Positions 8,396-47,302 of a stretch of DNA of 64,000 nucleotides are shown here, one piece after another. Numbering within the stretch: position 1 is the first letter of the stretch; every line of letters starts with the position of its first letter. The DNA is from Clostridiales bacterium (lineage in GTDB: Bacteria > Bacillota > Clostridia > Lachnospirales > Lachnospiraceae), in contig JAJQCD010000024.1 in assembly GCA_021202925.1 (NCBI GenBank), forward strand, positions 1 to 64,000. Reading direction: 5' to 3'. Position numbers and translations under genes: made by a program. Below the pieces are notes generated by a model. It searched no databases and was not told where the DNA came from. It saw nothing but the letters and a program-made list of their open reading frames with translations.

Positions 8396-8560
8396 ATAAT
8401 GATAAACAGATCCGAAGCGATATTTCCTAACGCTCTCAGAAGAGCCATGGGGATTTCGCCAGAAATCCGTCTGGATTTCTCAGGGTATGGCGGGAAACGG
8501 CTGTGCCTCCCACGTTTGGAAAGGAGAAGTTGATGAGCATCTGCGATTGTTGAACGATAT
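8396..8560 (+). promoter_or_regulatory. Probable Moco (molybdenum/tungsten cofactor) riboswitch
   Basis: The long leader of the cofactor operon folds into several helices. CAGAT (8407-8411) pairs with ATCTG (8539-8543) as a closing stem. GCTCT/AGAGC forms a short hairpin at 8432-8445. GCCAT (8444) pairs with ATGGC (8487) around a perfect GAAATCC/GGATTTC hairpin. GCCTCCCA followed by GGAAAGGAG fits my memory of the moco RNA consensus. A molybdenum cofactor gene cluster is the expected context. It would lower expression when the cofactor is abundant. The identification rests on memory of the motif and on context, not a covariance search. Confidence 0.62.
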
Positions 8561-8617: not shown

Positions 8618-9754
8618 ATGCAAAATAAGAGAAGTGTGGCGATTCTCTGCGGCGGACAGAGCAGCCGCATGGGACAGGATAAGGCGGGGTTGTGGTGGAG
8701 GGGAGAAAGCTTCCTGACGCGTCTGGAGGAGGAATTGGCTTCGGTCGGTACGTTGTATCTGTCAATGGGGGCCGACCGGACTTATAAAGGTACCCAGGGG
8801 ATTGCCGTAGTGGATCGCCATGCACACTGTGGTCCATTAGGCGGATTGCATGCGGTTCTGGAAAGGTGTGAGACGGAACAACTCTTTGTGGTGACGGTGG
8901 ATCAACCGCGGACGGATCGGGTGCTTGCGGAGGAGATACTGAGTTTCCTGGTGGATCCGGTTGATGCGGTGGTTCCGGTTGACGTTAAGGGAAGGATGCA
9001 TCCTCTATGCGCTGCATACCGGAAGTCAATCCTGCCGCTTGTGGAAAAGCAGATAGAAAACGGACAGTATCGTGTGCGGGATCTGCTCGACAGGCTCCGG
9101 GTGTGTTATGTGCCAGTCGGGAAGCTGACTGATGGAGCGACAAAACTGGATAACATCAATACACCGGAGGACTACCGGAGACTGTTAAACAGCCAGGTAG
9201 AGACGGTATGTGAGCGAGTGGATCCGGTGAGTTGTCTACGGGAAGAGATTCCTGTGTTTTCTGTTGTGGCGTATTCTGGCAGTGGGAAGACGACGTTCCT
9301 TGAGAAGCTGATCGCAGAACTGAAGAGGCGGGGGTTTCGTCTGGCGGTGATCAAACACGATGCACATGATTTTGAAATGGATCAGCCGGGAAAGGACAGC
9401 TTTCGTTTTACTCAGGCGGGAGCGGATACTGTGATCCTGGCTTCGGAGCGAAAGTCGGTGCGGATGGATCATTACCGGGTGAATGTGGAGGAATGGGTCG
9501 ACAGGATTCGTGGTGTGGATCTGATTCTGACGGAGGGATATAAGCATGGCGCTTACCGGAAAATTCTGCTCTTTCGGGAGGCGGCAGGAAAACCTCCTGC
9601 GTTTGACTGGAAAACGGAGCGGCCATTTTGTATCGTCAGTGATCGGGAGGAATGGCCGGACGCGGGGTGTCCGGTGTTTGGGCTGGATGATGTGAATGAG
9701 ATTGCCCGGTTGCTGGAAAACAGCATCAGGCGGGAAGGATCCGAAGAGGGATGA
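8618..9754 (+). CDS. mobAB: MobA-MobB fusion (molybdenum cofactor guanylyltransferase and GTP-binding adaptor)
   Basis: A 378-aa two-domain protein. Residues 1-190 are MobA: the nucleotide-binding ILCGGQSSRMGQDKA (9-23), then CGPLGGL and VTVDQP. MobA attaches GMP to molybdopterin to make the bis-MGD form used by DMSO-reductase-family enzymes. Residues 211-378 are MobB, with the Walker A loop YSGSGKTT (219-226) and ILTEGYKHG. Fusion of the two is known in several bacteria. ATG 8618 follows GAGGAGAAGGG. It is the first gene of a tightly packed operon behind the Moco leader, and its stop overlaps the moeA start. Confidence 0.92.
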   Translation: MQNKRSVAILCGGQSSRMGQDKAGLWWRGESFLTRLEEELASVGTLYLSMGADRTYKGTQGIAVVDRHAHCGPLGGLHAVLERCETEQLFVVTVDQPRTDRVLAEEILSFLVDPVDAVVPVDVKGRMHPLCAAYRKSILPLVEKQIENGQYRVRDLLDRLRVCYVPVGKLTDGATKLDNINTPEDYRRLLNSQVETVCERVDPVSCLREEIPVFSVVAYSGSGKTTFLEKLIAELKRRGFRLAVIKHDAHDFEMDQPGKDSFRFTQAGADTVILASERKSVRMDHYRVNVEEWVDRIRGVDLILTEGYKHGAYRKILLFREAAGKPPAFDWKTERPFCIVSDREEWPDAGCPVFGLDDVNEIARLLENSIRREGSEEG

Positions 9755-10992
9755 ATGTTTCGATCGAGGAAGCACAGGCAAGGCTGATGGAAGCTTCGGT
9801 TATGCTGGGAATTCAGAAAAAGAAAATAACCGATTGCCTTGGAGATGTACTGGCGGAAGACGTTGTTGCAGCGGCCATGCAGCCACCTTTCCCGCGTTCG
9901 GCGATGGATGGCTATGCACTTCATGCGGCGGATGTTGAGTCTGCAAACCGGGACAGGCCGGTGAGACTGCCGGTCAGGGGGACGATATACGCGGGTGATT
10001 CGCTGCCGGAGAGACTTTCGCGGGGCAAGACTGTGAGAATTATGACGGGAGCGCCGATTCCGCAAGGCGCGGATCTGGTCATTCCGCAGGAAGCGACCGA
10101 TTGCGGGGAACAGGAAGTGACGTTCTATGAGAGTGGCAAAGCGGGAGAGAATTGCTGCCCGGCGGGAGAGGATTTTCGGCGGGGCGAGATTCTTGCAGAA
10201 AAGGGCAACCCTGCAGACCCATATACAATGGCGGCAGCGGCAGCCGGGGGTGTGCGGGAAGTCTGTGTCCGTGAGCGGATTCGCGCAGCCGTGATCACGA
10301 CGGGGAATGAACTTGTTCCGGTGGATGAAGAACTACCGGCAGGGAAGATTTATAATTCGAGTCTGGTGTATTTTGTGAGCCGCTTATCGGAACTGGGATG
10401 CGAGGTGGTTTCGGCTGTAACGGTTTCGGATGAGGAAGAAGAAATTGCAGAAGCAATCCGGAATGCGGCGGTTGTGGCGGATCTGATTCTGACGACAGGT
10501 GGCGTATCGGTCGGAAGGCGGGATTGTCTGCCGGAGGTCATCCGGAGACTGGGGGCGACGGTTCTGTTCCGGGGGCTTTCCATTAAGCCGGGAATGCCGA
10601 CGATGGCGGCGAGCTTTAAGGAGCGGACGATCCTTTGCCTGTCGGGAAATCCCTATTCGGCGATTGCCATGTTTGAGATTCTGTATCCGGCTTATGAGAA
10701 GAAAGCGCAGGGACGAAACCGGATGCGGCTGGGACGCAGCCGGGGCGTGATGGGAAACACGTTCCCCAAATCGAGTCCGAGCCGCAGACTGGTGCGGGGA
10801 ATTCTGAAGGGGAACGATGTCTTTGTGCCGGAGATGCAGGGAAACGGACAGCTCCTGGCGGGAGTGGGGAGCAATTGCCTGGTGGACATCCCTGCGGGGA
10901 GCGGTCCGGTGATGCAGGGGGAAGAAGTGGAGCTTTTTGTTTTACCGGGAATCATTATGATGAATACCTATGACAGGGGGAGAGAACGATGA
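9751..10992 (+). CDS. moeA: Molybdopterin molybdenumtransferase MoeA
   Basis: A 413-aa MoeA with the usual domain set. The conserved loop PPFPRSAMDGYA is at about residues 45-56, then MTGAPIPQGADLVIPQE near 95. The MoCF-binding fold carries TTGGVSVGRRDCLPEVI, SIKPGMP and LSGNPYSA, and a C-terminal beta domain follows. It inserts molybdate into adenylylated molybdopterin. It overlaps mobAB by 4 nt and the next gene by 4 nt, which implies translational coupling. Confidence 0.94.
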   Translation: MNVSIEEAQARLMEASVMLGIQKKKITDCLGDVLAEDVVAAAMQPPFPRSAMDGYALHAADVESANRDRPVRLPVRGTIYAGDSLPERLSRGKTVRIMTGAPIPQGADLVIPQEATDCGEQEVTFYESGKAGENCCPAGEDFRRGEILAEKGNPADPYTMAAAAAGGVREVCVRERIRAAVITTGNELVPVDEELPAGKIYNSSLVYFVSRLSELGCEVVSAVTVSDEEEEIAEAIRNAAVVADLILTTGGVSVGRRDCLPEVIRRLGATVLFRGLSIKPGMPTMAASFKERTILCLSGNPYSAIAMFEILYPAYEKKAQGRNRMRLGRSRGVMGNTFPKSSPSRRLVRGILKGNDVFVPEMQGNGQLLAGVGSNCLVDIPAGSGPVMQGEEVELFVLPGIIMMNTYDRGRER

Positions 10993-12047
10993 AACTGATA
11001 CAAACGAAGGATGCGGTTGGCACGGTGCTTTGCCACGATATTACACAGATTATCCGGGGGGTGACCAAGGATGCCGTGTTCCGCAAGGGCCATATTGTGA
11101 CGGAGGAGGATATCCCGGTGCTTCTCAGTGTCGGCAAGGAAAGCCTGTACGTCTGGGAGCAGGAAGAAGGAATCCTGCATGAAAATGATGCCGCCGAGAT
11201 TCTGTGTACGATGTGCAGGGATGAGCACATGAATCGTTCGGGAGTGAAGGAAGGCAAAATTGAACTGACGGCGGCCTGTGACGGTCTGTTTAAGGTGAAC
11301 CGGGAAGGGCTGAAGGCGGTGAACCGCTTCGGGCGGATGATGATTGCGACCCGTCACGGGAATGTTACGGTAAGAAAGGGCGATAAACTCGCGGGTATGC
11401 GGATTATTCCGTTGATGATTGAGGCGGATCAGATGGAAGCGGCCCGGCGGGCGGCGATGGAGGCCACGGGCGGAGCGCCGATCCTTGCGATTCGGCCATT
11501 TGTACATAAGAAGGTCGGAATTGTCACAACAGGCAATGAAGTCTATTCCGGACGGATTGCGGATACCTTTACGCCGGTGATCCGGGAGAAGGTGGCAGAG
11601 TTTGATTCCGAAGTAATCGGGCATGAGATCTGGAATGACGACAATGAGAAGGTGACAGGCGCGATTCTGCGTCTGATTGAAGCGGGGGCGGACGTCGTGC
11701 TCTGTACGGGTGGAATGAGTGTGGATCCGGACGACAGGACGCCGCTTGCGATTAAGAATACCGGGGCGAATATCGTATCTTACGGGTTGCCGGTTCTGCC
11801 AGGAGCGATGTTCCTGCTGGCTTATTATACGGTTCAGGAAGGAGAGAATCCGCGGACCGTGGCAATCATGGGAGTTCCTGGCTGCGCAATGTACAGTCGG
11901 CGCACGATCCTGGATCTGATTCTTCCGCGTGTCATGGCGGACGATGTGGTGACTGCGGACGAGCTGGCGTCGCTGGGAGAGGGAGGCTTCTGCCTGAACT
12001 GTAAGGTCTGCACGTTTCCGAACTGCGGATTTGGAAAGGGAATGTAG
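10989..12047 (+). CDS. MoeA-like molybdopterin-binding protein with Cys-rich tail
   Basis: A 352-aa protein with a MoCF-type molybdopterin-binding domain in its second half: [32 protein letters not shown] and [12 protein letters not shown]. The N-terminal part lacks the PPFxxSxMDGYA loop of true MoeA. The C-terminus ends in [17 protein letters not shown], four Cys that could bind metal. Such proteins occur beside moeA in many anaerobic Firmicutes and may serve a variant metal-insertion or Moco-carrier step. That function is inferred. It overlaps moeA by 4 nt; moaC starts 2 nt after its stop. Confidence 0.82.
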
Positions 12048-12049
12048 CC

Positions 12050-12535
12050 ATGAGCGAATTTACTCATTTTGATCAGAACGGGAATGCAGTGATGGTAGAT
12101 GTCACTGAGAAAGGCGAGACGATCCGGGAGGCGCTTGCCTGTGGAAGAATCACCATGAGCCGGGCATGCTACGAAAAGGTAGCAATGGGAGAGATTGGCA
12201 AAGGAGATGTCCTCGGCGTGGCACGGATTGCCGGTATTATGGGCGCGAAGCGAACGTCGGAACTGATTCCCTTATGCCATCTTCTGCGGCTGACAAAAGT
12301 GGAGATCGATTTTGAACTCCTCGAAGCACAGGCTGCCGTGGAAGCCCGTTGCCGGGTGCGGACGGTGGGGAAGACTGGTGTGGAGATGGAGGCATTGACG
12401 GGCGTTCAGATTGCGTTACTTACGATCTATGATATGTGCAAGGCTGTGGATAAGGGAATGCAGATGGACGGTATTCGTCTGCTGAAAAAATCCGGCGGCA
12501 AAAGCGGAGACTGGGAGGCCATGAAGCAGGCATGA
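12050..12535 (+). CDS. moaC: Cyclic pyranopterin monophosphate synthase MoaC
   Basis: A 161-aa MoaC. Recognisable blocks are [42 protein letters not shown] and [26 protein letters not shown]. It converts the product of MoaA to cyclic pyranopterin monophosphate, the first committed intermediate of molybdopterin. The length is normal for the family. It overlaps moaA by 4 nt. Confidence 0.96.
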
Positions 12536-13497
12536 AGGATGCGTTTGGCAGAGAAATCAATTATATGCGGATTTCCATTACCGACCGCTGCAATTTGAGA
12601 TGCCGCTACTGCATGCCGGAGGGGATCCAGTGCGTGCCGATGCAGGATATTCTGACCTTTGAGGAGATCGAGCGGGTATGCCGGGAAGCGGTCGGGCTTG
12701 GGATTACCAGGTTTAAGATTACGGGCGGTGAGCCGTTAGTCAGGCTTGGCTGCCCGGCGCTTGTGAGGATGATCCGGCGAATTCCGGGCGTGTGCGAGGT
12801 GACCATGACGACCAATGGAGTCGCTTTGAAGCAATATCTGCCGGAACTTCTGGTGGCAGGGCTGGACGCAGTCAATATCAGCCTGGATACGCTTGACCGG
12901 GAGAAATTTCGGCAGATTACGGGATTTGACCGGCTGACCCGGGTGTGGGATTCCATCGACGCCGCATTGGAGTCTGGCCTGCGGGTGAAGATTAACACGG
13001 TTTTGCAGCGTGGAATCAACGATGGAGAATGGGAAAAACTGCTGCTTCTGGCAGAGAAGCGTGCGTTGGATGTCCGTTTCATTGAACTGATGCCGATCGG
13101 GTACGGGGCAAACGGCGGTATGGTATCCAATGTTGACCTGATGAGGCGGATCCGGGAGCGATATCCGCAGATAGAGCCGGATGCGACCGTCCATGGAAAT
13201 GGGCCGGCTACTTACTGGCGGATCCCGGGCTTTGAGGGTGGCGTCGGGTTTATCAGCGCGATTCATGGAAAGTTCTGTACCCGGTGCAATCGGATTCGCA
13301 TGACAGCGGTTGGAGAGGTCAAACCATGTCTCTGTTATGAACGGTCGTTTGACATCCGGCACGCATTACGGGACGGATCGGGGGACGAGGTGCGTGAGAC
13401 GTTGCTTTGCGCAATTCAGGCAAAGCCGGATATGCACTGCTTTGAAGAGAGAGAAGCCGTGACCGAGAGAAGGTTGATGGCGAAAATCGGAGGATGA
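12532..13497 (+). CDS. moaA: GTP 3',8-cyclase MoaA (radical SAM)
   Basis: A 321-aa radical SAM enzyme. The SAM-binding cluster motif is CNLRCRYC, followed by [11 protein letters not shown] second, substrate-binding cluster is held by [20 protein letters not shown] in the last third. The protein ends in Gly-Gly (MAKIGG), the conserved tail needed for catalysis. With MoaC it starts molybdopterin synthesis from GTP. MoaD and MoaE, needed for the next step, are not in this window. Confidence 0.96.
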
Positions 13498-13498
13498 G

Positions 13499-14434
13499 AT
13501 GGGACGTATTATCGCGATATGCATCAGCGAGGTGCGGGGAACACAAAAGTATGAGGTGGAGACGGCGCAGATTGTAGAAGGCTGGGGACTGGAAGGAGAC
13601 GCCCATGGAGGAAACTGGCATCGGCAGGTGAGCCTGTTGTCTTATGAAAAAATCGAGGAATTTCGCGCCAGGGGCGCGGAGGTGGAGCCGGGAGCCTTTG
13701 GGGAAAATCTGATTGTCGAGGGATTTGATTTTCGGACACTGCCGGTGGGAACGCGGTTTTACATCGGGGATGCGGTGCTGGAGATGACGCAGATCGGAAA
13801 GGAATGTCACAGCCACTGTCCGATCTATCAGAAGATGGGGGATTGTATCATGCCGCGCGAGGGAGTGTTTGCGCAGGTGGTAAAGGGCGGAGCCATTCAC
13901 AGGGGAGATGTGGTGGAGATGCTTCCTCCGGCCGCGGACAGGCCGTTTACGGCGGCGGTGATCACGCTGAGCGATAAGGGCGCGGCGGGGGAACGCAAAG
14001 ATGAGAGTGGGCCGACTGTGGTACGCCTGCTCACAGAGGCCGGTTACGATGTGAAGGAGACGATGATTCTGCCGGATGAGAGACAGCCGCTGGAGCTTCA
14101 GCTGAAAAGACTGGCCGATCAACGGCAGGTGGATGTGATCATGACGACCGGAGGAACCGGATTTTCACCGAGAGATATTACGCCGGAGGCGACGGTTGCG
14201 GTCTGTGACCGTATGGCAAATGGGATTGCGGAGGCGATTCGTGCGTATTCGCTGACCATTACGCCCCGTGCGATGCTCAGCCGGGCGGTATCCGGAATCC
14301 GTGGAAAAACGCTGATCGTCAATCTTCCGGGAAGTCCGAAGGCGGTGACGGAGGCGCTGGAATACATTTTGCCGAGTCTTGGCCACGGGCTGGGGATCCT
14401 GCGGGGGACAGAGGGAGAATGTGCCCGGAAGTAA
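13499..14434 (+). CDS. MOSC domain-MogA/MoaB fusion protein
   Basis: A 311-aa fusion. Residues 1 to about 145 are a MOSC domain (GLEGDAHGG, HRQVSLLS, PGAFGENL, then the Cys-containing ECHSHCPIY). From about 150 on, the protein is a MogA/MoaB-type domain (AVITLSDKGAAGERKDESGP, IMTTGGTGFSPRDITPEAT, LPGSPKAV). MogA adenylylates molybdopterin before MoeA adds the metal. MOSC domains bind or modify molybdenum cofactor, often as sulfur carriers. The fusion fits the cofactor operon, starting 1 nt after moaA. Confidence 0.92.
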   Translation: MGRIIAICISEVRGTQKYEVETAQIVEGWGLEGDAHGGNWHRQVSLLSYEKIEEFRARGAEVEPGAFGENLIVEGFDFRTLPVGTRFYIGDAVLEMTQIGKECHSHCPIYQKMGDCIMPREGVFAQVVKGGAIHRGDVVEMLPPAADRPFTAAVITLSDKGAAGERKDESGPTVVRLLTEAGYDVKETMILPDERQPLELQLKRLADQRQVDVIMTTGGTGFSPRDITPEATVAVCDRMANGIAEAIRAYSLTITPRAMLSRAVSGIRGKTLIVNLPGSPKAVTEALEYILPSLGHGLGILRGTEGECARK

Positions 14435-14609: not shown

Positions 14610-15566
14610 ATGAAAAAACAGGTATCACTGGCATTGGTTGCAGCCCTGGCGACAATGAGCCTGGCGGCTTGCGGAAGTTCTTCGTCGACCGCGACGACTG
14701 CGGCGGCGACAGAAGCGGCAACGGAAGCAGCGACGGAAGTCGCAGCCGAAGAAACGGAGGCGTCTGAGACCGAAGCGGCGGAAGAAACAGAAGCGGAGAC
14801 GGAGACCGAAGCTGCGGATGCGGGCGAGGAGACGGAGCTGATCGTTTTTGCGGCGGCGTCCATGACGGAGACGTTGACGGAAATCGCAGATCTGTACAAA
14901 GAGGTTGCCCCGAATGTCACGCTGACGTTCAATTTTGATTCGTCGGGAACGCTGAAGACACAGATTCAGGAAGGCGCGGACTGCGATATTTTTATCTCTG
15001 CGGGTCAGAAGCAGATGAATCAGCTGGATAAGGATGCGAGTGCGGACGTCAATACAGAAGGGCTGGATTTTGTGGACGGCGCAACCCGGATTGATCTGCT
15101 GGAGAACAGAGTGACATTGTGTACGCCGGAGGGAAATCCGGGAGGCGTGGAGAGTTTTGACGACCTGGCGGACAAGCTGGCAAACAGCGATATCCTGCTT
15201 GCAATGGGCAACAGTGATGTGCCGGTGGGACAGTATACGCAGAAGATTCTGGCGTACTATGGTCTGGATGAAGAAGAGCTTGCCAGTGCGGGTAAGATTA
15301 CATATGGAACCAATGTCAAGGAAGTGACCACGCAGGTAACGGAAGCAAGCGTGGATTGCGGCGTGGTTTACTGCACAGATGCTTACAGCGCGGGACTCAC
15401 TCCGGTCGACTATGCGACGGCTGAGATGTGTGGTCAGGTTATCTATCCGGCGGCCGTACTCAATGTCAGTGCTTCTCCGGATGCAGCGGCTGCGTTTCTG
15501 GAGTATCTGACCGGAGCGGATGCGATGGCGGTGTTCGAGAGCGTGGGATTTGCGCCGGTGGAGTAA
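14610..15566 (+). CDS. modA: Molybdate ABC transporter substrate-binding lipoprotein ModA
   Basis: A 318-aa lipoprotein with signal peptide and lipobox LAAC (Cys21), then a long low-complexity Thr/Glu/Ala linker to about residue 75. The ModA domain starts LIVFAAASMTETLTEIA; GTLKTQIQEGADCDIFISA and CGVVYCTDAY follow. It captures molybdate (or tungstate) outside the membrane. It comes 175 nt after the MOSC-MogA gene, with AAAGGAG before ATG 14610, and leads modBC. Confidence 0.93.
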   Translation: MKKQVSLALVAALATMSLAACGSSSSTATTAAATEAATEAATEVAAEETEASETEAAEETEAETETEAADAGEETELIVFAAASMTETLTEIADLYKEVAPNVTLTFNFDSSGTLKTQIQEGADCDIFISAGQKQMNQLDKDASADVNTEGLDFVDGATRIDLLENRVTLCTPEGNPGGVESFDDLADKLANSDILLAMGNSDVPVGQYTQKILAYYGLDEEELASAGKITYGTNVKEVTTQVTEASVDCGVVYCTDAYSAGLTPVDYATAEMCGQVIYPAAVLNVSASPDAAAAFLEYLTGADAMAVFESVGFAPVE

Positions 15567-15596
15567 AGATTTAGCGGAAAGGAGAACGAGAACGAT

Positions 15597-16271
15597 ATGG
15601 ATCTGTATCCGCTTTGGAATTCTCTGAGAATTGCGGCGATCAGCAGTGTGCTGGTTTTCTTTTCCGGCATCTTTCTCGCTTATTATGCGGCGCGGCTGCC
15701 CAGTGCGGTAAAAGGAATTCTCGATGTGCTGCTGACGCTGCCGATGGTGCTTCCGCCGACTGTGTGCGGCTATTTCCTGTTGATTTTATTTGGCGCGCGT
15801 CGTCCGCTTGGCATGTTTCTGGCGGAATATGGGATCAAATTTACGATGACCTGGTACGGTGGGATTCTGGCCGCCGCGGTCGTTGCGTTTCCGCTCATGT
15901 ACCGGACGGCGCGGGGAGCGTTTGAGAGTTTTGATGAGACGCTGGCGTATTCCGGACAAACGCTGGGGCTGTCCAATACTTATATTTTCTGGAGGATCCG
16001 TATGCCGGCCTGCCGGCAGGGGATCCTGGCGGGTACAGTGCTGGCCTTTGCCCGTGCGCTGGGGGAGTACGGTGCGACCAGTATGCTGATTGGTTATACG
16101 CCAGGCAAGACGGCGACCATCTCAACGACGGTTTACCAGCTCTGGCGCACGAATGACAATGAAGGGGCGTTTCGCTGGGTGATGATTAATGTGGCGATTT
16201 CGGCGGTGGTCCTTCTGGCGGTGAATATGCTGGAGACAAAGCAGAAACGTGTGAGCAGGAGGGGAAAATGA
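15597..16271 (+). CDS. modB: Molybdate ABC transporter permease ModB
   Basis: A 224-aa membrane protein with about five or six transmembrane helices. LTLPMVLPPTVCGYFLL near the start and the cytoplasmic EAA loop (GILAGTVLAFARALGEYGAT) are diagnostic of ModB. It forms the membrane channel with ModC. It overlaps modC by 4 nt. Confidence 0.95.
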   Translation: MDLYPLWNSLRIAAISSVLVFFSGIFLAYYAARLPSAVKGILDVLLTLPMVLPPTVCGYFLLILFGARRPLGMFLAEYGIKFTMTWYGGILAAAVVAFPLMYRTARGAFESFDETLAYSGQTLGLSNTYIFWRIRMPACRQGILAGTVLAFARALGEYGATSMLIGYTPGKTATISTTVYQLWRTNDNEGAFRWVMINVAISAVVLLAVNMLETKQKRVSRRGK

Positions 16272-17311
16272 GTCTGTCCGTTTCAATCAGAAAAAATTTC
16301 GGAAGCTTCAAACTGGATACCTCCTTTGAGACCAATGAGGCTGTACTTGGTTTCCTTGGCGCTTCTGGCTGTGGGAAATCGATGACACTCAAATGCATCG
16401 CGGGGATTGAGCGGCCGGATGAAGGGCGGATTGTCCTGAACGGGCGCGTCCTGTTTGACAGCCAGGCACATATCAATCTCCGGCCACAGGAACGCAGGGT
16501 TGGTTATCTGTTCCAGAACTACGGCCTGTTTCCCAATATGACGCTGGAACAGAACATTCGCTGCGGCCTTTGCCGGGAAAAGGATGCGGACAGGAGAGAG
16601 CGGGCGCTGCGGGAGATTATTGATCAGATGGTTTTAAGCGGGCTGGAGGATCATCGTCCGTCGCAGTTATCCGGCGGACAGCAGCAGCGTACCGCGCTTG
16701 CGAGAATTCTGGTAAACGGGCCGGAGATTCTTTTGCTGGACGAGCCGTTCAGTGCGCTGGACGCCTATCTGAAGCTGCAGCTGGAGACGGAGATGAAACA
16801 GATTCTGCGTGAGTTTGGAGGGGACGCCATTCTTGTAAGCCACAGCCGCGATGAGATTTACCGGCTATGCGACGAGGTGGCAATCATGGACAGTGGGCAC
16901 CTGCTGGGAAAAGGCAGTGTGAAAAAGATGTTTTCCGATCCGGGGAGCCGTCAGGGTGCGGTGCTGACCGGCTGTAAGAATATTGAAGCGGCGGAAAAAA
17001 GCGGCGAGTACGAGGTCTATGTCCCACGCTGGGGGATGCGATTCACAACGGCAACCCCGGTGGAGGATCATCTGTGCGCGATCGGAATCCGGGCGCATCA
17101 TTTCCGGCCGGACGTGGAGGTCAACCGCGGCAGGGTAATTTTTGTGGATGAGACGGAAGAACCCTTTGAGTGGATTGAGAAATTTCGCTATGAGAGCGCA
17201 AATGAAAATTGCGAGCCGGTCTGGTGGCGGCTCGCAAAGGAAGCGAAACCACAGGATCCCCCACAGGTGCTGGGCGTGGCTCCGGAAAATATTATGTTGT
17301 TGTATCAGTGA
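16268..17311 (+). CDS. modC: Molybdate ABC transporter ATPase ModC
   Basis: A 347-aa ABC ATPase. Walker A is GASGCGKS (31-38), the signature is LSGGQQQR, Walker B is ILLLDEPFSALD and the switch His is in LVSHSRDE. A C-terminal region of about 110 residues resembles the TOBE-type regulatory domain of ModC. It powers molybdate uptake by ModAB. Its TGA ends exactly where the stop codon of the convergent esterase gene begins, so no room is left for a terminator. Confidence 0.94.
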   Translation: MSLSVSIRKNFGSFKLDTSFETNEAVLGFLGASGCGKSMTLKCIAGIERPDEGRIVLNGRVLFDSQAHINLRPQERRVGYLFQNYGLFPNMTLEQNIRCGLCREKDADRRERALREIIDQMVLSGLEDHRPSQLSGGQQQRTALARILVNGPEILLLDEPFSALDAYLKLQLETEMKQILREFGGDAILVSHSRDEIYRLCDEVAIMDSGHLLGKGSVKKMFSDPGSRQGAVLTGCKNIEAAEKSGEYEVYVPRWGMRFTTATPVEDHLCAIGIRAHHFRPDVEVNRGRVIFVDETEEPFEWIEKFRYESANENCEPVWWRLAKEAKPQDPPQVLGVAPENIMLLYQ

Positions 17312-35329: not shown

Positions 35330-35352
35330 ATTAAAACATGGAGGGTGACAAT

Positions 35353-36771: not shown

Positions 36772-36837
36772 AGATGTCGTCCCACAGACAGAGAGTTTGT
36801 GATCGTGGCGGCTTAAAACAGGACAGGAGTGCATGGA

Positions 36838-37170: not shown

Positions 37171-37207
37171 TTACGACATCGGGCAGATGTCAGGGAAGGA
37201 GAATAAG

Positions 37208-38038: not shown

Positions 38039-38058
38039 ATGAAAGAGAGGATTATATC

Positions 38059-39452: not shown

Positions 39453-39494
39453 GACATCCAGCAAATCAGAGGGACAGAGGAGGAAGTGGAACCG

Positions 39495-40697
39495 ATGGAG
39501 GTCTTATATTTGGGATTGGTGTTTGTGGTAATTATTGCGCTTCTGGCGCTGCGCCGCCCGTTGTATCAGGCAATCCTGGGGGGACTGCTGGCGATTGCGG
39601 TATTGTTTCGGATTCCGATTGCTGACGCAGCGTTCTGTACCTCGCGGGTCATTACCGTATGGTCCTCTTTTTCCGTGCTGGTGGTGTTCTACCTGATCAC
39701 CTTTCTGCAACGGATTCTGGAAGCACGTCAGCAGATTCGTCTGGCACAACAGGATCTGAATGGGATCTTTCATAACCGGCGCGTGAATGTGGCAGGTGCC
39801 TCGCTCTTTATCGGATTGCTGCCATCCGCGGCGGCGATGATCCTCTGCGGAGATATCGTCAGGGACGCGACGGACGGCTATCTGAATCCCAGAGAGCAGG
39901 CATTTGTTACATCCTGGTTCCGGCATATCCCGGAGAGTGCACTTCCGACTTATACGGCGGTGTTGTTGATGATGAGTTTATCCGGCGTGGAACTGTCAAG
40001 TTTTCTTCCTGGGATGATCGTGCCGGTGCTTACGCTGGCACTGTTGGGGTATGTGGCTTATCTGCGGAAGATTCCAAAGGATCCGGGTACACCGCTCAGT
40101 CAGTCGAGAGGAAAAGATGTGGTTCATCTGTTTGAACATCTGTGGTCGCTGCTGCTGATTCTTGTGCTGATCCTGGGGTTCGGGCTGGATGTGGTTTCTG
40201 CAGTTTTTCTGGTCATTCTCGCATCGATTGTTGTGTATCGGGTGACAGTTGCGGAGTTGAAGCAGATGGTTTTTTCCGCTTTTGAAAAGAAAATGCTGGG
40301 CAACACGTTTCTGGTTCTGGTCTTAAAGGAATTTATTTCCTATACCGGTGTCTTGGAACAGTTGCCGGAACTGATGGCCGGTCTGCCGTTGCCGCCATAT
40401 CTGGTGTTTGCGGTGCTGATGTTCGCCGCGACGGTGATCAGCGGCTCTACCGGAGCGATCGCCATGGGAACACCGCTGGCGTTCGCCGCGATTCCGGGCG
40501 GTATGCCGTTAATGGTTTATCTGATGTGTGTGACACACGCCGCGAGCCAGATTTCGCCGACGCATGTGTGTCTGGTGGTGGCATCGGATTATTACCATAT
40601 TTCACTGGGAGAACTGGTGAGGAAGACGATCCCGTTTTCCTTGGCATTCTGCGTATTGATGACCGTGTATTATCAGATTTTGCTGATACTTGTTTGA
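39495..40697 (+). CDS. DUF401 family integral membrane protein
   Basis: A 400-aa, very hydrophobic protein with about ten transmembrane helices. NVAGASLFIGLLPSAAAMILCG, TSWFRHIPESALPTYTAVLL, ISGSTGAIAMGTPLAFAAIP and THAASQISPTHVCLVVASDYY match the DUF401 (COG1906) group. These proteins have a permease-like fold with two homologous halves and no agreed substrate. The ATG at 39495 has AGGAGG upstream; GTG 39486 overlaps that site. It shares its promoter architecture with the downstream molybdoenzyme operon, so it may move that enzyme's substrate or product. That link is inference. Confidence 0.82.
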   Translation: MEVLYLGLVFVVIIALLALRRPLYQAILGGLLAIAVLFRIPIADAAFCTSRVITVWSSFSVLVVFYLITFLQRILEARQQIRLAQQDLNGIFHNRRVNVAGASLFIGLLPSAAAMILCGDIVRDATDGYLNPREQAFVTSWFRHIPESALPTYTAVLLMMSLSGVELSSFLPGMIVPVLTLALLGYVAYLRKIPKDPGTPLSQSRGKDVVHLFEHLWSLLLILVLILGFGLDVVSAVFLVILASIVVYRVTVAELKQMVFSAFEKKMLGNTFLVLVLKEFISYTGVLEQLPELMAGLPLPPYLVFAVLMFAATVISGSTGAIAMGTPLAFAAIPGGMPLMVYLMCVTHAASQISPTHVCLVVASDYYHISLGELVRKTIPFSLAFCVLMTVYYQILLILV

Positions 40698-40891: not shown

Positions 40892-41440
40892 ATGAGTCGT
40901 TGGGGGTTTCTTTTCGATCAGACCAGGTGTGTGGGCTGTAATGCCTGTCAGATGGCCTGCAAGGACAAAAACAACCTGGAGCTGGGGCAGTTTTTCCGCC
41001 GGGTGGTGACTTATGAGACGGTGAAAGACGGGAAAACATTCTGCGTAAATTATTCCGGAGCGTGCAACCATTGCAAGGATGCGGCCTGTGTGAAAGGTTG
41101 TCCGACGGGAGCGATGCATTACCGGGAGGACGGGACGGTCGCCCATGATGATGAGAAGTGTATTGGCTGTGCAACCTGTGTCTGGGTATGTCCGTATGGG
41201 GCGCCTTCTCTGAGTCATAAGCGGGGAATTGCGCTCAAATGTACCTCGTGCGCGGATCTTCGCAGCGAGGGGAGGAATCCTGCCTGTGTGGATGCCTGTA
41301 TTATGCATTGCCTGGAATTTGTGGATCTGGATGAACTGGATGCGGAATCGGAGAAAAGGATGGTCCGGGAACTGCCGTTTTTACCGGAAGCCTCCCTGAC
41401 CGATCCTTCTTTGCGGATTCTTCCGAAACGGGGTGAGTGA
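40892..41440 (+). CDS. DmsB-like four-cluster ferredoxin subunit
   Basis: A 182-aa electron-transfer protein with four [4Fe-4S] binding motifs: CVGCNACQMAC, CNHCKDAACVKGCP, CIGCATCVWVCPYG and CTSCAD with a later CVDAC. This is the pattern of DmsB/NrfC/PhsB-type subunits, which wire molybdopterin enzymes to a redox partner. ATG 40892 follows AGGAGGGGAGG; an upstream in-frame ATG at 40850 is before the site. It is the first gene of the operon and overlaps the next frame. No DmsC-type membrane anchor is encoded nearby. Confidence 0.92.
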   Translation: MSRWGFLFDQTRCVGCNACQMACKDKNNLELGQFFRRVVTYETVKDGKTFCVNYSGACNHCKDAACVKGCPTGAMHYREDGTVAHDDEKCIGCATCVWVCPYGAPSLSHKRGIALKCTSCADLRSEGRNPACVDACIMHCLEFVDLDELDAESEKRMVRELPFLPEASLTDPSLRILPKRGE

Positions 41441-41442
41441 CA

Positions 41443-42666
41443 ATGGCAGAGATTGTGATATTGGGAAATGGAATTGCCGCGTATTCGGCGGCGAAAGAGA
41501 TTCGCAAATATGACAGGGAGTCGCGGATCACTTTTATTTCGGAAGAGAAGAGCAGCACTTATCTGCGCCCTCTCCTGAGCAAGACGTATTTTAAGTCCTT
41601 TCAGAAGGAAAAGATTCGACTGGAGACGGATGCCTGGTATGAGGCGCAGGGGATGCGGCAGATTCTGGGAGTAAGAATCACCGGGATGTCGACAGAAGAA
41701 AAGAAGATTATCTTGGATGATGGCAGGGAAGTGCCGTATGATTCCTGCGTTTATGCGCTGGGAGCAAGCTGCTTTGTGCCGCCTTTCGGAGGAAAGGACA
41801 GAAAGGGCGTAATGGTCGTCCGTTCGTTTAAAGATTTTGACGATATCCGCAGGAACCTTTATACTGCGTCTAACGCGGTGGTGATTGGAGGCGGGGTGAT
41901 CGGTCTGGAGATGGCCTGGGAATTAAAGCAGATGAATTGTGGACTGACGATTCTGGAGGCGGGACCGCGGCTGATGGGGCGGCTGCTGGATGAACAGTCG
42001 GCGGGCGTTTTAAGCGAGGCGATCCGCAGGCAGGGGATTACCGTGGAAGCGGGTGTCAATATTAAGGAGATTACGGGAGATGAGTCGGCGACCGGCGTAG
42101 CCTGCGCAGACGGCTCCTGGTATCCGGCGGACGTGGTGATTGTTTCATGCGGCGTCCGTGCCAACAGCCAGATTGCCAGGGAAGCAGGGCTATCATGCGA
42201 CCGTGGCGTGGTGGTGGATGAATGGATGCGGACGAGCGATCCGCATATCTATGCCGCAGGAGACTGTATGCAGGCCGCGTCGCCGAATCCGTCCCTGTGG
42301 TCATATTCTAAAGTATCGGGAGAGACGGCAGGCTATAATCTCTGTCATCCGGACGCGCCGCGAGCGTTTGTCGCGCCGCCGTCGCCGGTTATCATTTCCG
42401 GGTTTGGGACAAATCTTTTTTCGATTGGCGATGTGTCGGTCGGGGAAGGTGTGACGGTCGTGGATGAAGACGGTCAGAATGAAGTGGATGGATCGGCCTT
42501 GTCTGTCGATACGGAGAACGTGTGGAAGAGATTCCGGGTGAATGAGGCAAGAGGCGGTGATACGCATTATTCGCGGCGTTTTTACCGGGATGGGAAACTG
42601 AAAGGTGCGGTTCTGCTTGGCGATCTGTCCGAGATGGCGGCGATCAAGGCGGAGCTGGGATTCTAA
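41443..42666 (+). CDS. FAD-dependent NAD(P)H oxidoreductase (NirB/rubredoxin-reductase-like)
   Basis: A 407-aa pyridine nucleotide-disulfide family flavoprotein. The N-terminal FAD loop is IVILGNGIAAYSAAKEIR, the NAD(P)H loop is VVIGGGVIGLEMAWELK, and the second FAD motif is IYAAGDCMQA. It resembles the FAD domain of nitrite reductase large subunits and rubredoxin reductases and lacks redox-active CxxC at the flavin. It probably feeds electrons from NAD(P)H through the ferredoxin subunit to the molybdoenzyme. ATG 41443 sits 2 nt after the stop of the ferredoxin gene. Confidence 0.87.
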   Translation: MAEIVILGNGIAAYSAAKEIRKYDRESRITFISEEKSSTYLRPLLSKTYFKSFQKEKIRLETDAWYEAQGMRQILGVRITGMSTEEKKIILDDGREVPYDSCVYALGASCFVPPFGGKDRKGVMVVRSFKDFDDIRRNLYTASNAVVIGGGVIGLEMAWELKQMNCGLTILEAGPRLMGRLLDEQSAGVLSEAIRRQGITVEAGVNIKEITGDESATGVACADGSWYPADVVIVSCGVRANSQIAREAGLSCDRGVVVDEWMRTSDPHIYAAGDCMQAASPNPSLWSYSKVSGETAGYNLCHPDAPRAFVAPPSPVIISGFGTNLFSIGDVSVGEGVTVVDEDGQNEVDGSALSVDTENVWKRFRVNEARGGDTHYSRRFYRDGKLKGAVLLGDLSEMAAIKAELGF

Positions 42667-42676
42667 GGAGGGGCAG

Positions 42677-45550
42677 ATGGACAGACGGGAATACAGGATT
42701 TATTCAGATTTACTCTCATGCGCGTCGTTCTTCTGGCGCCGTGATTATGGCGTGTCGATCATCAAAGAGATGACGGACTGGAGGGAACACACAGAGCGCG
42801 AGTGGGAACTGGAATACGATGCGCTGTATCGTGGGACAAACGCGGATTATCGCATGCCGCTCTGGGCGTCCGTCTTTCTGGGCGATAAGGCGCTCCTGAA
42901 CCAGACGACGCTGGAGGTGATTCAGACCTATCACAAATGGGGATATGAGCCTGTGCGGATGGAGGGAAATCCTCCGGATTATATCGGCGAGCAGTTCCGC
43001 TTCCTTGCCTATCTGACGGCGGCAGGCATTTATGCATCGGAACACGGTGAAAACGATGTGGCTGAGGAGATATGGGAAGAGAGAGAAGCGTTTATTCTCT
43101 ATTATACCTGCGGTGAGATGCGGATGATGAAGGATGCCGCAATGAAAAATAAGACTTACCAGGGATACATCAATCTGCTGGAAAAGTACCTGGTATTTCT
43201 GGCGGATGAGAACCATGAGAAGGGTGGTTTCCCGTTGCCGGAGGGCTTTCAGGATGAGGAACTGGAACAGGTTAAGCTGCATGGCAGACATGCGGAGATT
43301 CCCAATGAAAAGGCTCACGTCATTCCGACCGGCGGACTCAACAACTGTGGCGGCATCTGTGTGATTCGTCCGACGGTGCAGGAGGGTTGTATGCTGTCGA
43401 TCGAGTCCGATTGTACCAGCAATCATCCGCAGATTCGCGCCTGTGTGCGTGGATGCGGTTATCGCAAGACCTTTCTGAATCCGGACCGGCTTCGCTATCC
43501 GATGAAGCAGATCGGGGAGCGGGGAAGCGGGAAGTTTGAGCGGATTAGCTGGGACGAGGCGATTTCCATTATCTATGAGAACTGGGTGCGGATCCGCGAT
43601 ACCTATGGGCCGGGATCGCGTTACCTGATCTATGGCACGGGCGTGACCGGTATCATGCGTCCAGGCAATCTGATTAAGAGATTACTGGCAATGGACGGAG
43701 GCTATCTGGATTATTTTAACTCCTACAGTTCCGCACAGGTCAACTATATCATGAACTATGTGTACGGATCGACGAGTGGTTCGAACAGTGCGGCGGATCT
43801 CCTGAATACAAAACTTCTGATTCTCTGGGGACACAATCCGTCGGAAACGATCTTCGGGCCGGAACGCAATTATTATCTGTCGGAATTAAAGAAGAAAGAT
43901 GTGCGGGTGATTGCGATCGATCCGAGACTGAACAATACGGCGGCGGCCTATGCGGATGAATGGATTGCGCCGCGCCCGGCGACGGACTGTGCGCTGGCAG
44001 ACGCCATGGCCTATGTGATCTGGTCGGAGGGACTCCAGGATCAGCATTTTATGGACACCTACTGTATCGGTTTTGATGAGGAGCACATGCCGGAGGGGGT
44101 GCCGTGGGGAGAGAGCTATCACACTTACCTGTTTGGGGAGAAGGACGGCGTGCCGAAGACGCCGGAGTGGGCGGAACCGATTACCGGTGTCCGCGCGAAT
44201 GTGATTCGCAGACTGGCCAGAGAACTGGCGACGACCAGACCGGCCTGTATTCAGGCAGGACTGGGGCTGCAGCGGCATGGAAACGGTGAACAGAATGCGC
44301 GGGGCATTATGATGCTGAGCTGTCTGACGGGCAATGTCGGCATTCCCGGTGGAAGTCCGGGAGGGAATGCCAGCAACCTGGAGGAGCATAACACACCGTC
44401 TCTGTTTACCAATAAGGTTACCAATCCCTATCCGGGTAAGATTCCGGTCTTCTTGTGGACAAAGGCGATCGAGCATGGGACGGAGATGACGCCGCGGGAG
44501 GATCGGCTAAAGGGTGTGGATCATCTGGACAGCAACATTAAGATGCTGTTCAACATCGCCAGCAATACGCTGATCAATCAGCATTCGGACATCAACGACA
44601 CGATCCGGATTCTGAAGGACGATACGAAATGTGAGTTTATTCTCTGCTCGGATATCTTCATGACGCCGAGCGCCCGCTATGCGGACGTGGTCCTGCCGGC
44701 CACTTCGGTTTTTGAAGGGAATAATATCGTGGCCTCATGGGCGGGCGGCAATTATTTCCTGAGGAACAACAAGGTGGTGGAGCCGTTGTTTGATTGCCGC
44801 TTCGAGTGGGAGTGGATCAAGGAAATCGCGGGGCGTCTTGGTATCCGGGAGGAATTCACGGACCACATGGAGGATGCCGAGGACTGGCTGCGCGCCAATT
44901 ACGAGATTCTGCGTGAGAAAGAGCCGGGACTGCCGGAGTATGAGGAGTTTTGCCGACTGGGTGGCTGGCAATATTCGGATCCGATCAATGGAATCCCGTT
45001 CTACGACCAGATTCATGATCCGGAGCATGCTCGTTTCCATACTCCGTCCGGTAAGATCGAGATCTTTTCGAAGGAACTGTATGACTTTGGCCAACCTGAC
45101 GATATTCCGGCGATTCCGAAGTATGTTCCCACGCCGAGAGGATATGAGGATCCGTTGCGGGAGAAGTATCTGCTGCAGCTGATTGGCTGGCATACCCGCA
45201 GGCGTTGCCATTCGATTCACGATAATAACGAATGGCAGGATGAAGTCGAGATGCCGTCGGTATGGATGAATCCGGCGGATGCGGACAGTCGCGGTATCGA
45301 GAACGGAGATCTGGTGGAGGTCTACAATGAGATTGGCCGGGTCCGGCTTCCGGCGACACTGACAAACCGGATTATGGAGGGCGTCGCGGCGATGTCTCAG
45401 GGCGCCTGGTATACACCCGATGCGGACGGAACGGATATCCGTGGGTCCATCAATGTGCTGACATCGGCAGCAGAACCGTCGCCGCTTGCCAAGGGGAATC
45501 CGCAGCATACGAATCTGGTGGAAATCTGTGCCGCGACGGCGACAAAGTGA
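42677..45550 (+). CDS. TorD-chaperone domain fused to a DMSO-reductase-family molybdopterin oxidoreductase
   Basis: A 957-aa protein. Residues 1-195 look like a TorD/DmsD chaperone: an all-helical region with NPPDYIGEQFRFLAYL (98-113), the family's PPDH..E..FL signature. From about 215 the DmsA-type catalytic part begins. The FS0 cluster region reads GLNNCGGIC...ACVRGC, with Cys224, Cys228 and Cys256 but Gly220 where DmsA has its first Cys. Later come LLILWGHNPSET, IAIDPRLNNT, GLQRHGNGEQ, LTGNVGIPGG and a C-terminal molydopterin-binding domain; Ser371 is a candidate Mo ligand. There is no Tat signal. ATG 42677 follows AAGGAGGGG. The substrate is unknown. Confidence 0.88.
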   Translation: MDRREYRIYSDLLSCASFFWRRDYGVSIIKEMTDWREHTEREWELEYDALYRGTNADYRMPLWASVFLGDKALLNQTTLEVIQTYHKWGYEPVRMEGNPPDYIGEQFRFLAYLTAAGIYASEHGENDVAEEIWEEREAFILYYTCGEMRMMKDAAMKNKTYQGYINLLEKYLVFLADENHEKGGFPLPEGFQDEELEQVKLHGRHAEIPNEKAHVIPTGGLNNCGGICVIRPTVQEGCMLSIESDCTSNHPQIRACVRGCGYRKTFLNPDRLRYPMKQIGERGSGKFERISWDEAISIIYENWVRIRDTYGPGSRYLIYGTGVTGIMRPGNLIKRLLAMDGGYLDYFNSYSSAQVNYIMNYVYGSTSGSNSAADLLNTKLLILWGHNPSETIFGPERNYYLSELKKKDVRVIAIDPRLNNTAAAYADEWIAPRPATDCALADAMAYVIWSEGLQDQHFMDTYCIGFDEEHMPEGVPWGESYHTYLFGEKDGVPKTPEWAEPITGVRANVIRRLARELATTRPACIQAGLGLQRHGNGEQNARGIMMLSCLTGNVGIPGGSPGGNASNLEEHNTPSLFTNKVTNPYPGKIPVFLWTKAIEHGTEMTPREDRLKGVDHLDSNIKMLFNIASNTLINQHSDINDTIRILKDDTKCEFILCSDIFMTPSARYADVVLPATSVFEGNNIVASWAGGNYFLRNNKVVEPLFDCRFEWEWIKEIAGRLGIREEFTDHMEDAEDWLRANYEILREKEPGLPEYEEFCRLGGWQYSDPINGIPFYDQIHDPEHARFHTPSGKIEIFSKELYDFGQPDDIPAIPKYVPTPRGYEDPLREKYLLQLIGWHTRRRCHSIHDNNEWQDEVEMPSVWMNPADADSRGIENGDLVEVYNEIGRVRLPATLTNRIMEGVAAMSQGAWYTPDADGTDIRGSINVLTSAAEPSPLAKGNPQHTNLVEICAATATK

Positions 45551-45562
45551 GAGAAACGATAT

Positions 45563-45624
45563 AACGGATGGCGTGTCTATGCGTGTGGCCAATGACCAGA
45601 CGCATAGACACGCCATCTGTTTTG
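45563..45624 (+). terminator. Terminator of the molybdoenzyme operon
   Basis: A very long stem: ATGGCGTGTCTATGCGT pairs perfectly with ACGCATAGACACGCCAT, extended by AACGG/CTGTT-type pairs, and followed by TTTTG. It lies just after the oxidoreductase stop. Confidence 0.88.
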
Positions 45625-45639
45625 CTGTGGAAACCGCGA

Positions 45640-45668
45640 TTGCATTCAGAGAGAACGACTGTTATAAT
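45640..45668 (+). promoter_or_regulatory. Promoter of the AAA-ATPase-like gene
   Basis: TTGCAT (45640-45645), a 17-bp spacer and TATAAT (45663-45668), 45 nt before the start codon. Confidence 0.7.
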
Positions 45669-45712
45669 GATAAGGGAAACAGGGCGGTTTTGGAGACGGG
45701 AGGTGCGTGAAC

Positions 45713-47302
45713 ATGGGTGATTACCTGAATCCGGGGAATGAAGCGTTTCGGACAATTTGCAATGAAATTTATGTGGATAAAACAGGATTGATTGCTTATA
45801 TAAACGGTACGATCAATACACCACGCAAACTGACCAGTTTTAGCCGACCAAGGCGTTTTGGAAAATCATTTGCGGCGAAGATGCTGTGTGCCTATTATGA
45901 CAGAAGCTGTGACTCCCGTGTATTGTTTGAAGGGCTTGAGATATCAAAGGCGGATTCGTACGAGAAATATTTGAATCAGTTTGATGTGATTTATCTGGAT
46001 ATCGTGCAGTTCGTGTCAAACTGCATGGATAGAAAGAATGTTGTCAAAGATTTACAGATGCGGGTGATTCGGGAGCTGAAGATGAATTACCCGGAGATTG
46101 CAGATCTGGAGGAGACAGTTTTGCCCTATGTGTTATCGGCGATCGTGGCAAAGACAAACAGGAAATTTATTATAATCATAGATGAGTGGGATGCGTTGTT
46201 CCGTGAGGCCAAAGACGATCTGGCCTTGCAGGAAGAGTATGTCCGCTTGCTGAGAGGAATTTTTAAAGCCGGGCCAATGACAGATAAGATCATTGCGGGC
46301 GCTTATATGACAGGGATTCTTCCGATTAAGAAGTATGGAACGCAGTCGGCGTTGACGGATTTCCGGGAATTTACGATGATTGAGCCGTTTGGGTTGTCGG
46401 AGTATGTTGGCTTTACGGAGGATGAAGTCTGCGCGCTGGGCAAGGCTCACGATCTGGATCTGGATGAGATGAAGCAGTGGTATGACGGATATTCTTTTCG
46501 TGAGACGCAACATGTTTATAGTCCTAATTCTGTTATGAGCGCGGTTTATAATAGAAAATGTCGGAATTACTGGACGTCATCTGAAACTTACGAATCGCTG
46601 AAAAGCTATATCAGTCAGAACTTTGACGGTCTGAAGGATGCGGTTGTCGCCATGCTTGGCGGCGGGAAAATCCGGATTAATACGTCCAGATTTCAGAATG
46701 ATATGACGTCCTTTAAGAGCCGGGATGATATTCTGACGTTGTTGATTCACCTGGGCTATCTGGCCTATGACGAATCGTCTGCAAAGGTATTTATCCCGAA
46801 TCTCGAAGTTGCGGAGGCTTTCCGTGATGCGGTGGAAGGAGAAGGGTGGGAGGAGATTGAGAAGGCACTGATGGCGTCGGAGGATCTTCTGGAGGCAACG
46901 ATTGACGGAGCGTGTTCCGCAGTGGAACAGGCATTGGAAGAAATTCATGAAGCGAATTTTTCGATTCTCCGATACAACGATGAAAATTCTCTGAGCTGTG
47001 CCATCACACTTGCTTATTATACGGCGCGCAATTACTACGAGATGATTCGTGAACTTCCGGCGGGAAAGGGGTTTGCGGATCTGGCCTTTTTGCCCAGAAA
47101 GCATGTGGATAAACCAGCCATACTTGTAGAGTTAAAATATGACAGGGATGCGGACAGCGCCATTCGACAGATCAAAGAGAACCATTACGATGGCATATTA
47201 AAGAAATACTTCGGAAACCTGCTTCTGGTAGGGATCAATTATGATAAAAATGCGAAGGGCGAGAAGATGAAGAAGCATTCGTGCATGATCGAGCGTGTGT
47301 AG
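45713..47302 (+). CDS. AAA-ATPase-like / PD-(D/E)XK nuclease superfamily protein
   Basis: A 529-aa protein of the AAA-ATPase_like plus DUF1703 type, common in multiple copies in Clostridia and Bacteroidetes. The N-terminal ATPase has the Walker-A-like SRPRRFGKSFAAKM and Walker B FIIIIDEWDALF; YVDKTGLIAYI near the start is also typical. The C-terminal nuclease-like domain has FADLAFLPRK and the Glu-x-Lys pair ILVELKYDRDAD. Function is not established; mobile or defence roles have been suggested for relatives. ATG 45713 follows GGGAGGTG; GTG 45707 is closer to that site. A fragment of a second copy is at 451-687. Confidence 0.9.
   Translation: MGDYLNPGNEAFRTICNEIYVDKTGLIAYINGTINTPRKLTSFSRPRRFGKSFAAKMLCAYYDRSCDSRVLFEGLEISKADSYEKYLNQFDVIYLDIVQFVSNCMDRKNVVKDLQMRVIRELKMNYPEIADLEETVLPYVLSAIVAKTNRKFIIIIDEWDALFREAKDDLALQEEYVRLLRGIFKAGPMTDKIIAGAYMTGILPIKKYGTQSALTDFREFTMIEPFGLSEYVGFTEDEVCALGKAHDLDLDEMKQWYDGYSFRETQHVYSPNSVMSAVYNRKCRNYWTSSETYESLKSYISQNFDGLKDAVVAMLGGGKIRINTSRFQNDMTSFKSRDDILTLLIHLGYLAYDESSAKVFIPNLEVAEAFRDAVEGEGWEEIEKALMASEDLLEATIDGACSAVEQALEEIHEANFSILRYNDENSLSCAITLAYYTARNYYEMIRELPAGKGFADLAFLPRKHVDKPAILVELKYDRDADSAIRQIKENHYDGILKKYFGNLLLVGINYDKNAKGEKMKKHSCMIERV

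Follow-up and report, generated by a model that had tools for sequence, protein, structure and literature searches.

TorD-family chaperones are thought to perform leader guarding and the insertion of iron–sulfur clusters and the molybdenum cofactor (Moco) at once, roles that are hard to separate. Two of them, NarJ and DmsD, are described as having one site for an N-terminal leader or its remnant and a second site for the insertion of FS0 and then of Moco (PMC10609526; for NarJ also PMC5123574). In the case of the dimethyl sulfoxide (DMSO) reductase DmsABC, a leaderless DmsA gives a less stable but soluble and active DmsAB (PMC10609526); methionine sulfoxide, nicotinamide N-oxide and pyrimidine N-oxide are all substrates that DmsABC can reduce (PMC12096835). 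Here we analyzed a 64,000-nucleotide stretch from a Clostridiales bacterium of the Lachnospiraceae (assembly GCA_021202925.1, contig JAJQCD010000024.1, positions 1 to 64,000; hereafter the window), in which a TorD domain and a DmsA-type catalytic domain are joined in a single protein, T-A, encoded downstream of a ferredoxin subunit (B) and a FAD/NAD(P)H oxidoreductase (R):

42677..45550, + strand: T-A, TorD-DmsA fusion of 957 aa (Pfam, NCBIfam, BLASTP)
42677..43291, + strand: TorD/NarJ chaperone domain, about residues 1-205 (PF02613 core 30-139 by Pfam; motif P99-x-D101-Y102)
43310..45547, + strand: DmsA-type catalytic domain for bis(molybdopterin guanine dinucleotide) (bis-MGD), presumed Mo ligand S351 (Pfam, NCBIfam, BLASTP)
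43334..43453, + strand: altered FS0 motif with G220 (first Cys in DmsA), C224, C228, extra C238 and C256-x-R258-G259 (alignment)
40892..41440, + strand: B, DmsB-like ferredoxin subunit with four [4Fe-4S] motifs (TIGR02951, Fer4, 40% identity to Escherichia coli DmsB)
41443..42666, + strand: R, FAD/NAD(P)H oxidoreductase (Pyr_redox_2; PF07992, 5e-61), ATG at 41443, with an in-frame GTG at 41437
45563..45621, + strand: terminator-like hairpin closing the B-R-TA operon (inverted repeat; 45556-45640 at -50 kcal/mol, z -9.3)

We consider T-A to be probably a cytoplasmic, soluble, NADH-linked S-/N-oxide reductase of the DmsA family with its maturation chaperone in cis. All components belong to known families; what appears to be new is a cis TorD-DmsA branch with B and R, a changed FS0 motif and an additional cysteine, C238. 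With E. coli DmsABC and DmsD the system shares the TIGR02166 catalytic family, a B-type ferredoxin, the conserved serine and a TorD-family chaperone, but it differs in having the chaperone in cis, in the presence of R, in the replaced first FS0 cysteine and the extra C238, and in lacking both a twin-arginine translocation (Tat) leader and DmsC. In NarGHI/NarJ, too, the catalytic subunit is cytoplasmic and depends for its maturation, at FS0/Moco insertion, on a chaperone of PF02613 (PMC10609526, PMC5123574), whereas NarJ is a separate protein and NarG is membrane bound and of another catalytic clade.

T-A is encoded in one stop-free frame, whose ATG is preceded by TAAGGAGGGGCAG with the strong ribosome-binding site TAAGGAGGGGCAGATGG. 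Residues 30-139 match PF02613 (TorD/NarJ; Pfam name Nitrate_red_del) at 52.6 bits against a cut-off of 22.2 (6.4e-14), the catalytic part matches PF00384 at 271-719 and PF01568 at 833-945, and residues 210-951 score 884.2 bits with TIGR02166 (DMSO/selenate reductase A subunit) against a cut-off of 777.7. A TorD domain followed by a DMSO-reductase-type domain in one chain, as proposed by an earlier sequence-only reading of the window, was thus recovered, with matches to both the PF02613 and the PF00384 profile. E. coli DmsA aligns to residues 202-950 with 45% identity (BLASTP). The TIGR02166 cut-off was also passed by the fusions at loci L018, L027, L061 and L081 and by the unfused protein L112, and a divergent fusion, L115, fell under it (763.1 bits). 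BisC is a cytoplasmic Mo reductase for S-oxides (biotin/methionine sulfoxide) that, to our knowledge, has no TorD domain and no B or R partner; unlike it, T-A scores only 380.9 bits with bisC_fam, below the cut-off of 1017.55, which places it outside the BisC type. S351, which we take to be the particular Mo-ligating serine, is invariant in 59/59 fused rows and aligns with the YSS of E. coli DmsA. DmsA is classed as Ser-coordinating for Mo (PMC10100899).

The fusion is recurrent but patchy. When 299 genomes of the same family were surveyed with the N-terminal part of T-A as query, six matched, including the window's own, and a seventh (G246) was found later; the TorD part and a DmsA are both missing from the sole other genome of the same genus in this draw (G172), so the distribution is patchy. 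A wide scan by patterns and tblastn over one genome per species (84,980 species) yielded 68 loci, of which 66 are fused and two (L082, L083) carry the catalytic part without TorD. The scan patterns were derived from fused proteins and so favour them, leaving unfused relatives under-sampled; many loci are metagenome bins, and our counts are of rows, not of independent events. In the window and the 66 further loci, TorD and catalytic parts lie in one shared frame with no stop or frameshift at the junction, so the fusion is genuine, and separate genes or a frame error are ruled out (67 loci). Seven fused frames run off the contig end (L017, L023, L032, L041, L046, L055, L075), and that of L044 stops early, past the junction and 73 bases short of the contig end. 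The profile A1, used in assigning the domains of these loci, was built from six fused proteins, and the far members L079 and L081, whose TorD parts are below PF02613 in the genome search, rest on single-sequence matches. Hosts of the 66 loci are anaerobic Bacillota, Spirochaetota and Synergistaceae (labelled Lachnospiraceae, Oscillospiraceae-type including Dysosmobacter and Oscillibacter, Erysipelotrichaceae/Solobacterium, Clostridium, Clostridia, Treponema and other Spirochaetota, and a Synergistaceae member), and the strains Acetitomaculum ruminis DSM 5522 and Clostridium sp. DSM 17811 each carry a TorD-DmsA fusion frame. Many samples come from ruminant gut sites and one from horse faeces; other loci, judging by their isolate codes, are presumably from termites or digesters.

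For genome-wide searches we used 52 fusion genomes, comprising six from the family survey plus the genomes in which 46 of the 68 loci lie (the other 22 are five from the same genomes as the survey, the unfused pair, and 15 on short contigs or from near kin). PF02613 was found in 51 of 54 genomes (these 52 plus two unfused), the misses being G203, which is fused but too divergent, and the two unfused. Among the 54, stand-alone TorD frames are confined to G298 (242 aa) and G219 (216 aa); the remaining PF02613 frames are 892-1370 aa long, besides a different TorD fusion of 572 aa in G299. A second fusion type, TorD with a Fer4_22 ferredoxin domain (571 aa; L117:6604-8319, + strand, in the genome of L016), shares its operon with another molybdoenzyme and a protein of the NAD-binding/DHODB type, and L118:6739-8378 (+ strand) shows the unfused form of this pair with TorD as a separate gene. 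One Synergistaceae genome (G344) holds two TorD-DmsA paralogues, L080 and L119, and G336, G337 and G342 have two long PF02613 frames each.

The genes form a compact operon in the order B, R, T-A, with intergenic gaps of 2 and 10 bases, and both upstream genes are what the sequence-only reading had taken them for, a four-cluster ferredoxin and a FAD/NAD(P)H oxidoreductase. Four ferredoxin motifs account for 16 of the 18 cysteines of B, which contains Fer4 domains and scores 176.6 bits with TIGR02951, under the cut-off of 214.1. R has the N-terminal part of NirB as its top NCBIfam match, under its cut-off; it resembles this and the other NADH-dependent FAD proteins HcaD and PadH but lies below their cut-offs and accompanies a DmsA-type enzyme. 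An acidic residue ending the dinucleotide site is the usual mark of NADH use, and since the second such site of R ends acidic (LTILEAG), R would use NADH.

In the window and the 66 loci, we counted 49 T-A, 11 R-T-A and seven B-T-A architectures. The R-T-A chains are all labelled Solobacterium or Erysipelotrichaceae (complete frames of ~1360 aa) and the B-T-A chains all Lachnospiraceae (~1120-1170 aa); one of each kind was Pfam-confirmed (L027 and L018, respectively), and a quick tree built from the catalytic part requires at least one change for R-T-A and two for B-T-A. At four T-A loci (L040, L043, L052, L065) there is a neighbouring B-R fusion. The same fusion with the same two neighbours, a combination that the sequence-only reading had proposed looking for, recurs across these loci: among the 56 fused loci for which 2.5 kb or more of upstream sequence is available, and calling B and R by similarity to those of the window, in chain or within 2 kb, B is present in 46 (in L081 as a 79-aa partial match only) and R in 36. 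Two further R matches, of 38 initially, were rejected: the protein beside L019 is by Pfam of a Pyr_redox/rhodanese/sulfite-reductase type, and the one beside L024 was assigned to the same kind on its length and position alone. Because B or R is fused into the same chain elsewhere, both are tied to the T-A enzyme, and by this gene-fusion argument they would form its electron path, though not in every lineage.

The location of the enzyme was predicted from what its genome lacks. No Tat-like leader is visible on T-A by eye, the two N-terminal RR pairs (DRREYRI, WRRDYGV) having no hydrophobic stretch after them; TatC is absent from the window's own genome (completeness 100); and DmsC (PF04976) is found in 0/52 fusion genomes, the window's included (NrfD-type anchors were not searched for). 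The lack of a Tat motif and a DmsC gene noted earlier therefore stands, and Tat export or a DmsC anchor can be rejected for this genome. T-A is also its single PF02613 and its single PF00384 match (molybdoenzymes of other superfamilies were not searched for). With no TatC, no DmsC and no other PF02613 or PF00384 protein, the T-A enzyme should be cytoplasmic. A contrast is provided by G298, in which TatC is present, a DmsA-like protein bears an SRREFLK leader and is encoded beside a free TorD, and the fusion lies elsewhere in the genome. These absences, together with the in-chain occurrence of R or B elsewhere, favour what had been suggested, a reductase that is soluble and cytoplasmic, is driven by NAD(P)H and carries its own assembly factor. 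Also in favour of this reading are the Moco riboswitch and Moco genes that the window itself contains:

8400..8540, + strand: Moco/W riboswitch preceding the Moco genes (RF01055, 70.3 bits, gathering threshold 36)
8618..14434, + strand: Moco biosynthesis genes MobA-MobB, MoeA, MoeA-like, MoaC, MoaA and MOSC-MogA-like (Pfam)
14610..17311, + strand: ATP-binding cassette (ABC) transporter, ModABC-like by position (Pfam SBP_bac_11, BPD_transp_1, ABC_tran), its probable substrate taken from the neighbouring genes

In the enzyme we propose, NADH would reduce the FAD of R, and electrons would pass via the four clusters of B, and via an altered FS0 site, on to Mo-bisMGD, where a small S- or N-oxide would be reduced. 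The tethered TorD domain would hold the apo catalytic funnel open for FS0/Moco insertion, the Moco machinery loading bis-MGD. This action may be likened to that of the second, non-leader site of NarJ and DmsD, with the leader-binding and Tat-proofreading role presumably gone. In a fermenter, such an enzyme may serve as an electron sink or in the repair of oxidised metabolites. We infer the chaperone action, NADH use, electron path and substrate of T-A from sequence comparison.

Several observations weigh against this proposal. The DH pair (an EPxDH-type motif) is a mark of the TorD family, and its histidine has been linked to leader binding in DmsD. The pair occurs in 4/4 free TorDs compared; in the fused rows D101 is kept (59/59), with residue 102 being Y in 51, F in six, D in one and H in one, so that the histidine is absent in 58/59. 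Five close unfused relatives sit in genomes without detectable PF02613, and the TorD domain would thus be dispensable in kin. TatC is found in 4/52 fusion genomes and above cut-off in 12/299 genomes of the same family; as it is rare across the family, its absence does not set fusion genomes apart, and we rejected it as a mark of them. Neither B nor R is present in 10/56 loci and none of the B-T-A chains proved to have a true R as neighbour, so this electron donor is not universal. Finally, MoaE (PF02391, the large subunit of molybdopterin synthase) was not detected in the window's own genome, and was found in 10/52 fusion genomes at 21-41 bits. Moco supply is therefore not fully explained, and would require either a very divergent MoaE or another route.

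The most distinctive feature of the catalytic part is its FS0 region. The DmsA FS0 motif has been given as C-x3-C-x3-C-xn-C (preprint PMC12636705) and is visible in E. coli DmsA; T-A has G220 at the first cysteine and thus lacks the classical motif. Across 61 fused rows (alignment A2 contributes 59 complete ones, to which L115 and L119 are added; eight incomplete fused loci were dropped), this position is Gly in 50, Ser in nine, Asn in one and Cys in one (L115), a replacement in 60/61, and the five unfused relatives also have Gly. C224, C228, C238, C256 and R258 are invariant in 59/59. C238 (in VQEGC), ten residues past the third motif cysteine, is present in 61/61 fused rows, and at its position in 0/5 unfused relatives (Lys) and 0/4 Tat-kind DmsA-type rows. 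The sequence-only reading, sound on the fusion and its context, had missed both the altered motif and the invariant cysteine. C238 as a plain substitute ligand for the lost first cysteine is a weakened idea, since both cysteines occur in L115 and neither in the five unfused relatives; FS0 here may be a three-Cys cluster, a cluster using C238, or lost. As there are near-copies among the rows and the tree shows about one change of the trait, the co-change of TorD and C238 counts as one correlated event. On a joint loss of both in the unfused relatives two trees disagree: in the first, unfused rows are nested among fused ones (support 95), and in the second, built without long rows and near-copies, they fall outside a fused clade (84, not starred). 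The unfused DmsA-like proteins are L112:6502-8751, L113:6405-8606, L114:4914-7118, L082:7989-10271 and L083; near L082 and L083 there is no B or R match, and none is evident by eye for L112, L113 and L114. The divergent fusion with the first FS0 cysteine kept and a C238 equivalent is L115:6117-9029 (- strand).

The TorD domain itself remains under purifying selection: its ratio of nonsynonymous to synonymous substitution rates (dN/dS) is 0.10-0.29 in eight of nine close pairs, the ninth being saturated, and that of the catalytic part is lower (0.05-0.11). G53, W63, S65, P99 and D101 are invariant in the 59 rows. Loss of the DH histidine under purifying selection fits a chaperone that keeps cofactor insertion and loses leader binding; the same pattern would fit a loss of chaperone function, too. 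An explanation of the latter kind, in which TorD is now a permanent structural or docking part (a seat for B/R or for the MobA/MoeA machinery, or an FS0 shield), would account for its covalent retention, for the missing histidine and for its faster evolution relative to the catalytic part, as well as for its co-variation with C238 of the catalytic domain (61/61 fused, 0/5 unfused). We nevertheless regard it as unlikely, given the five invariant residues, the presence of the domain in loci without B or R, and the agreement of cis action on the apoenzyme with the second site described for NarJ and DmsD (PMC10609526). A further, tentative reading, rather less than likely, is a self-maturing clade in which TorD and C238 would act as one unit that takes part of the FS0 role in cofactor loading or electron entry, the chaperone being permanent and perhaps redox-linked, and in which the NADH-to-Mo chain would be condensing into a single polypeptide (R-T-A, B-T-A).

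Concerning the substrate, it had been stated that none can be guessed from sequence, which holds for the exact molecule but not for the class, as family membership and the conserved serine favour S-/N-oxides. In the catalytic-part tree the nearest outgroup is E. coli DmsA/YnfF (with few outgroup rows), which, with the known substrates of DmsABC, points to S-/N-oxides. A different class (selenate, an N-hydroxy compound, or an organic acid imported by a DUF401 transporter) would suit TIGR02166, which is a DMSO/selenate family, and the transporter gene found shortly upstream of the operon:

39486..40697, + strand: DUF401 membrane transporter, possible partner (PF04165, 2.1e-21)

Relatives of this gene lie near the fusion in four other loci, two of them Pfam-confirmed. 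A transporter in only five of the compared loci, the DmsA/YnfF outgroup (again from few outgroup rows) and the action of DmsABC on S-/N-oxides (PMC12096835) make another class doubtful. A conventional respiratory DmsA with a chance replacement of its leader, supplied with electrons by a membrane quinol dehydrogenase elsewhere, would explain the DmsA/DmsB-like catalytic part and B but is highly improbable with DmsC in 0/52 genomes (NrfD-type anchors not searched for), no TatC in its own genome, and R in the operon and fused in kin.

In the open-licence literature, we found no description of the TorD-DmsA/B/R system beyond a single-sentence mention of delta-alpha fusions in PMC6147048 (BMC Genomics 2018). 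The section of that paper containing it is silent on sequences, taxa, partners, any FS0 change and mechanism, and the paper's Table 4 of new fusions does not include PF02613. The words "fused" and "fusion" are absent from a survey of the NarJ subfamily (PMC4464133), as are "TorD", "chaperone" and "fused" from an MopB survey (PMC10100899). The loci described here outline a cytoplasmic, apparently NADH-linked DmsA branch in anaerobes mostly without TatC (48/52). As the leader is gone and chaperone and client are tied 1:1, the insertion role could be studied alone. TorD and C238, jointly present or jointly absent, offer a natural comparison, and relatives with added parts may provide a clean way to study metal-cofactor delivery to molybdenum enzymes.

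A MobA-like match lies within 3 kb of the fusion in 19/66 fused loci (21 including the unfused L082 and L083). Often together with MobA, a small membrane protein (weak PF09819) and a short protein without Pfam match recur near the fusion, as at L035:10893-11994 (- strand) with equivalents elsewhere including L031 and L082, and these are possibly an uptake pair. L012 adjoins a flavodiiron-like gene and, by eye, a desulfoferrodoxin-like gene. In the window, an AAA-ATPase_like/PDDEXK_9 protein follows immediately after the operon (45707-47302, + strand). Further upstream are rhamnose-type sugar genes (35338-39201, + strand) for a rhamnulose-1-phosphate aldolase, a mutarotase, a lactaldehyde reductase and an unusual isomerase that weakly resembles fucose/arabinose isomerases, and a Clostridiales-1 small RNA (RF01699, 110 bits) is encoded at 32220-32378 (- strand).

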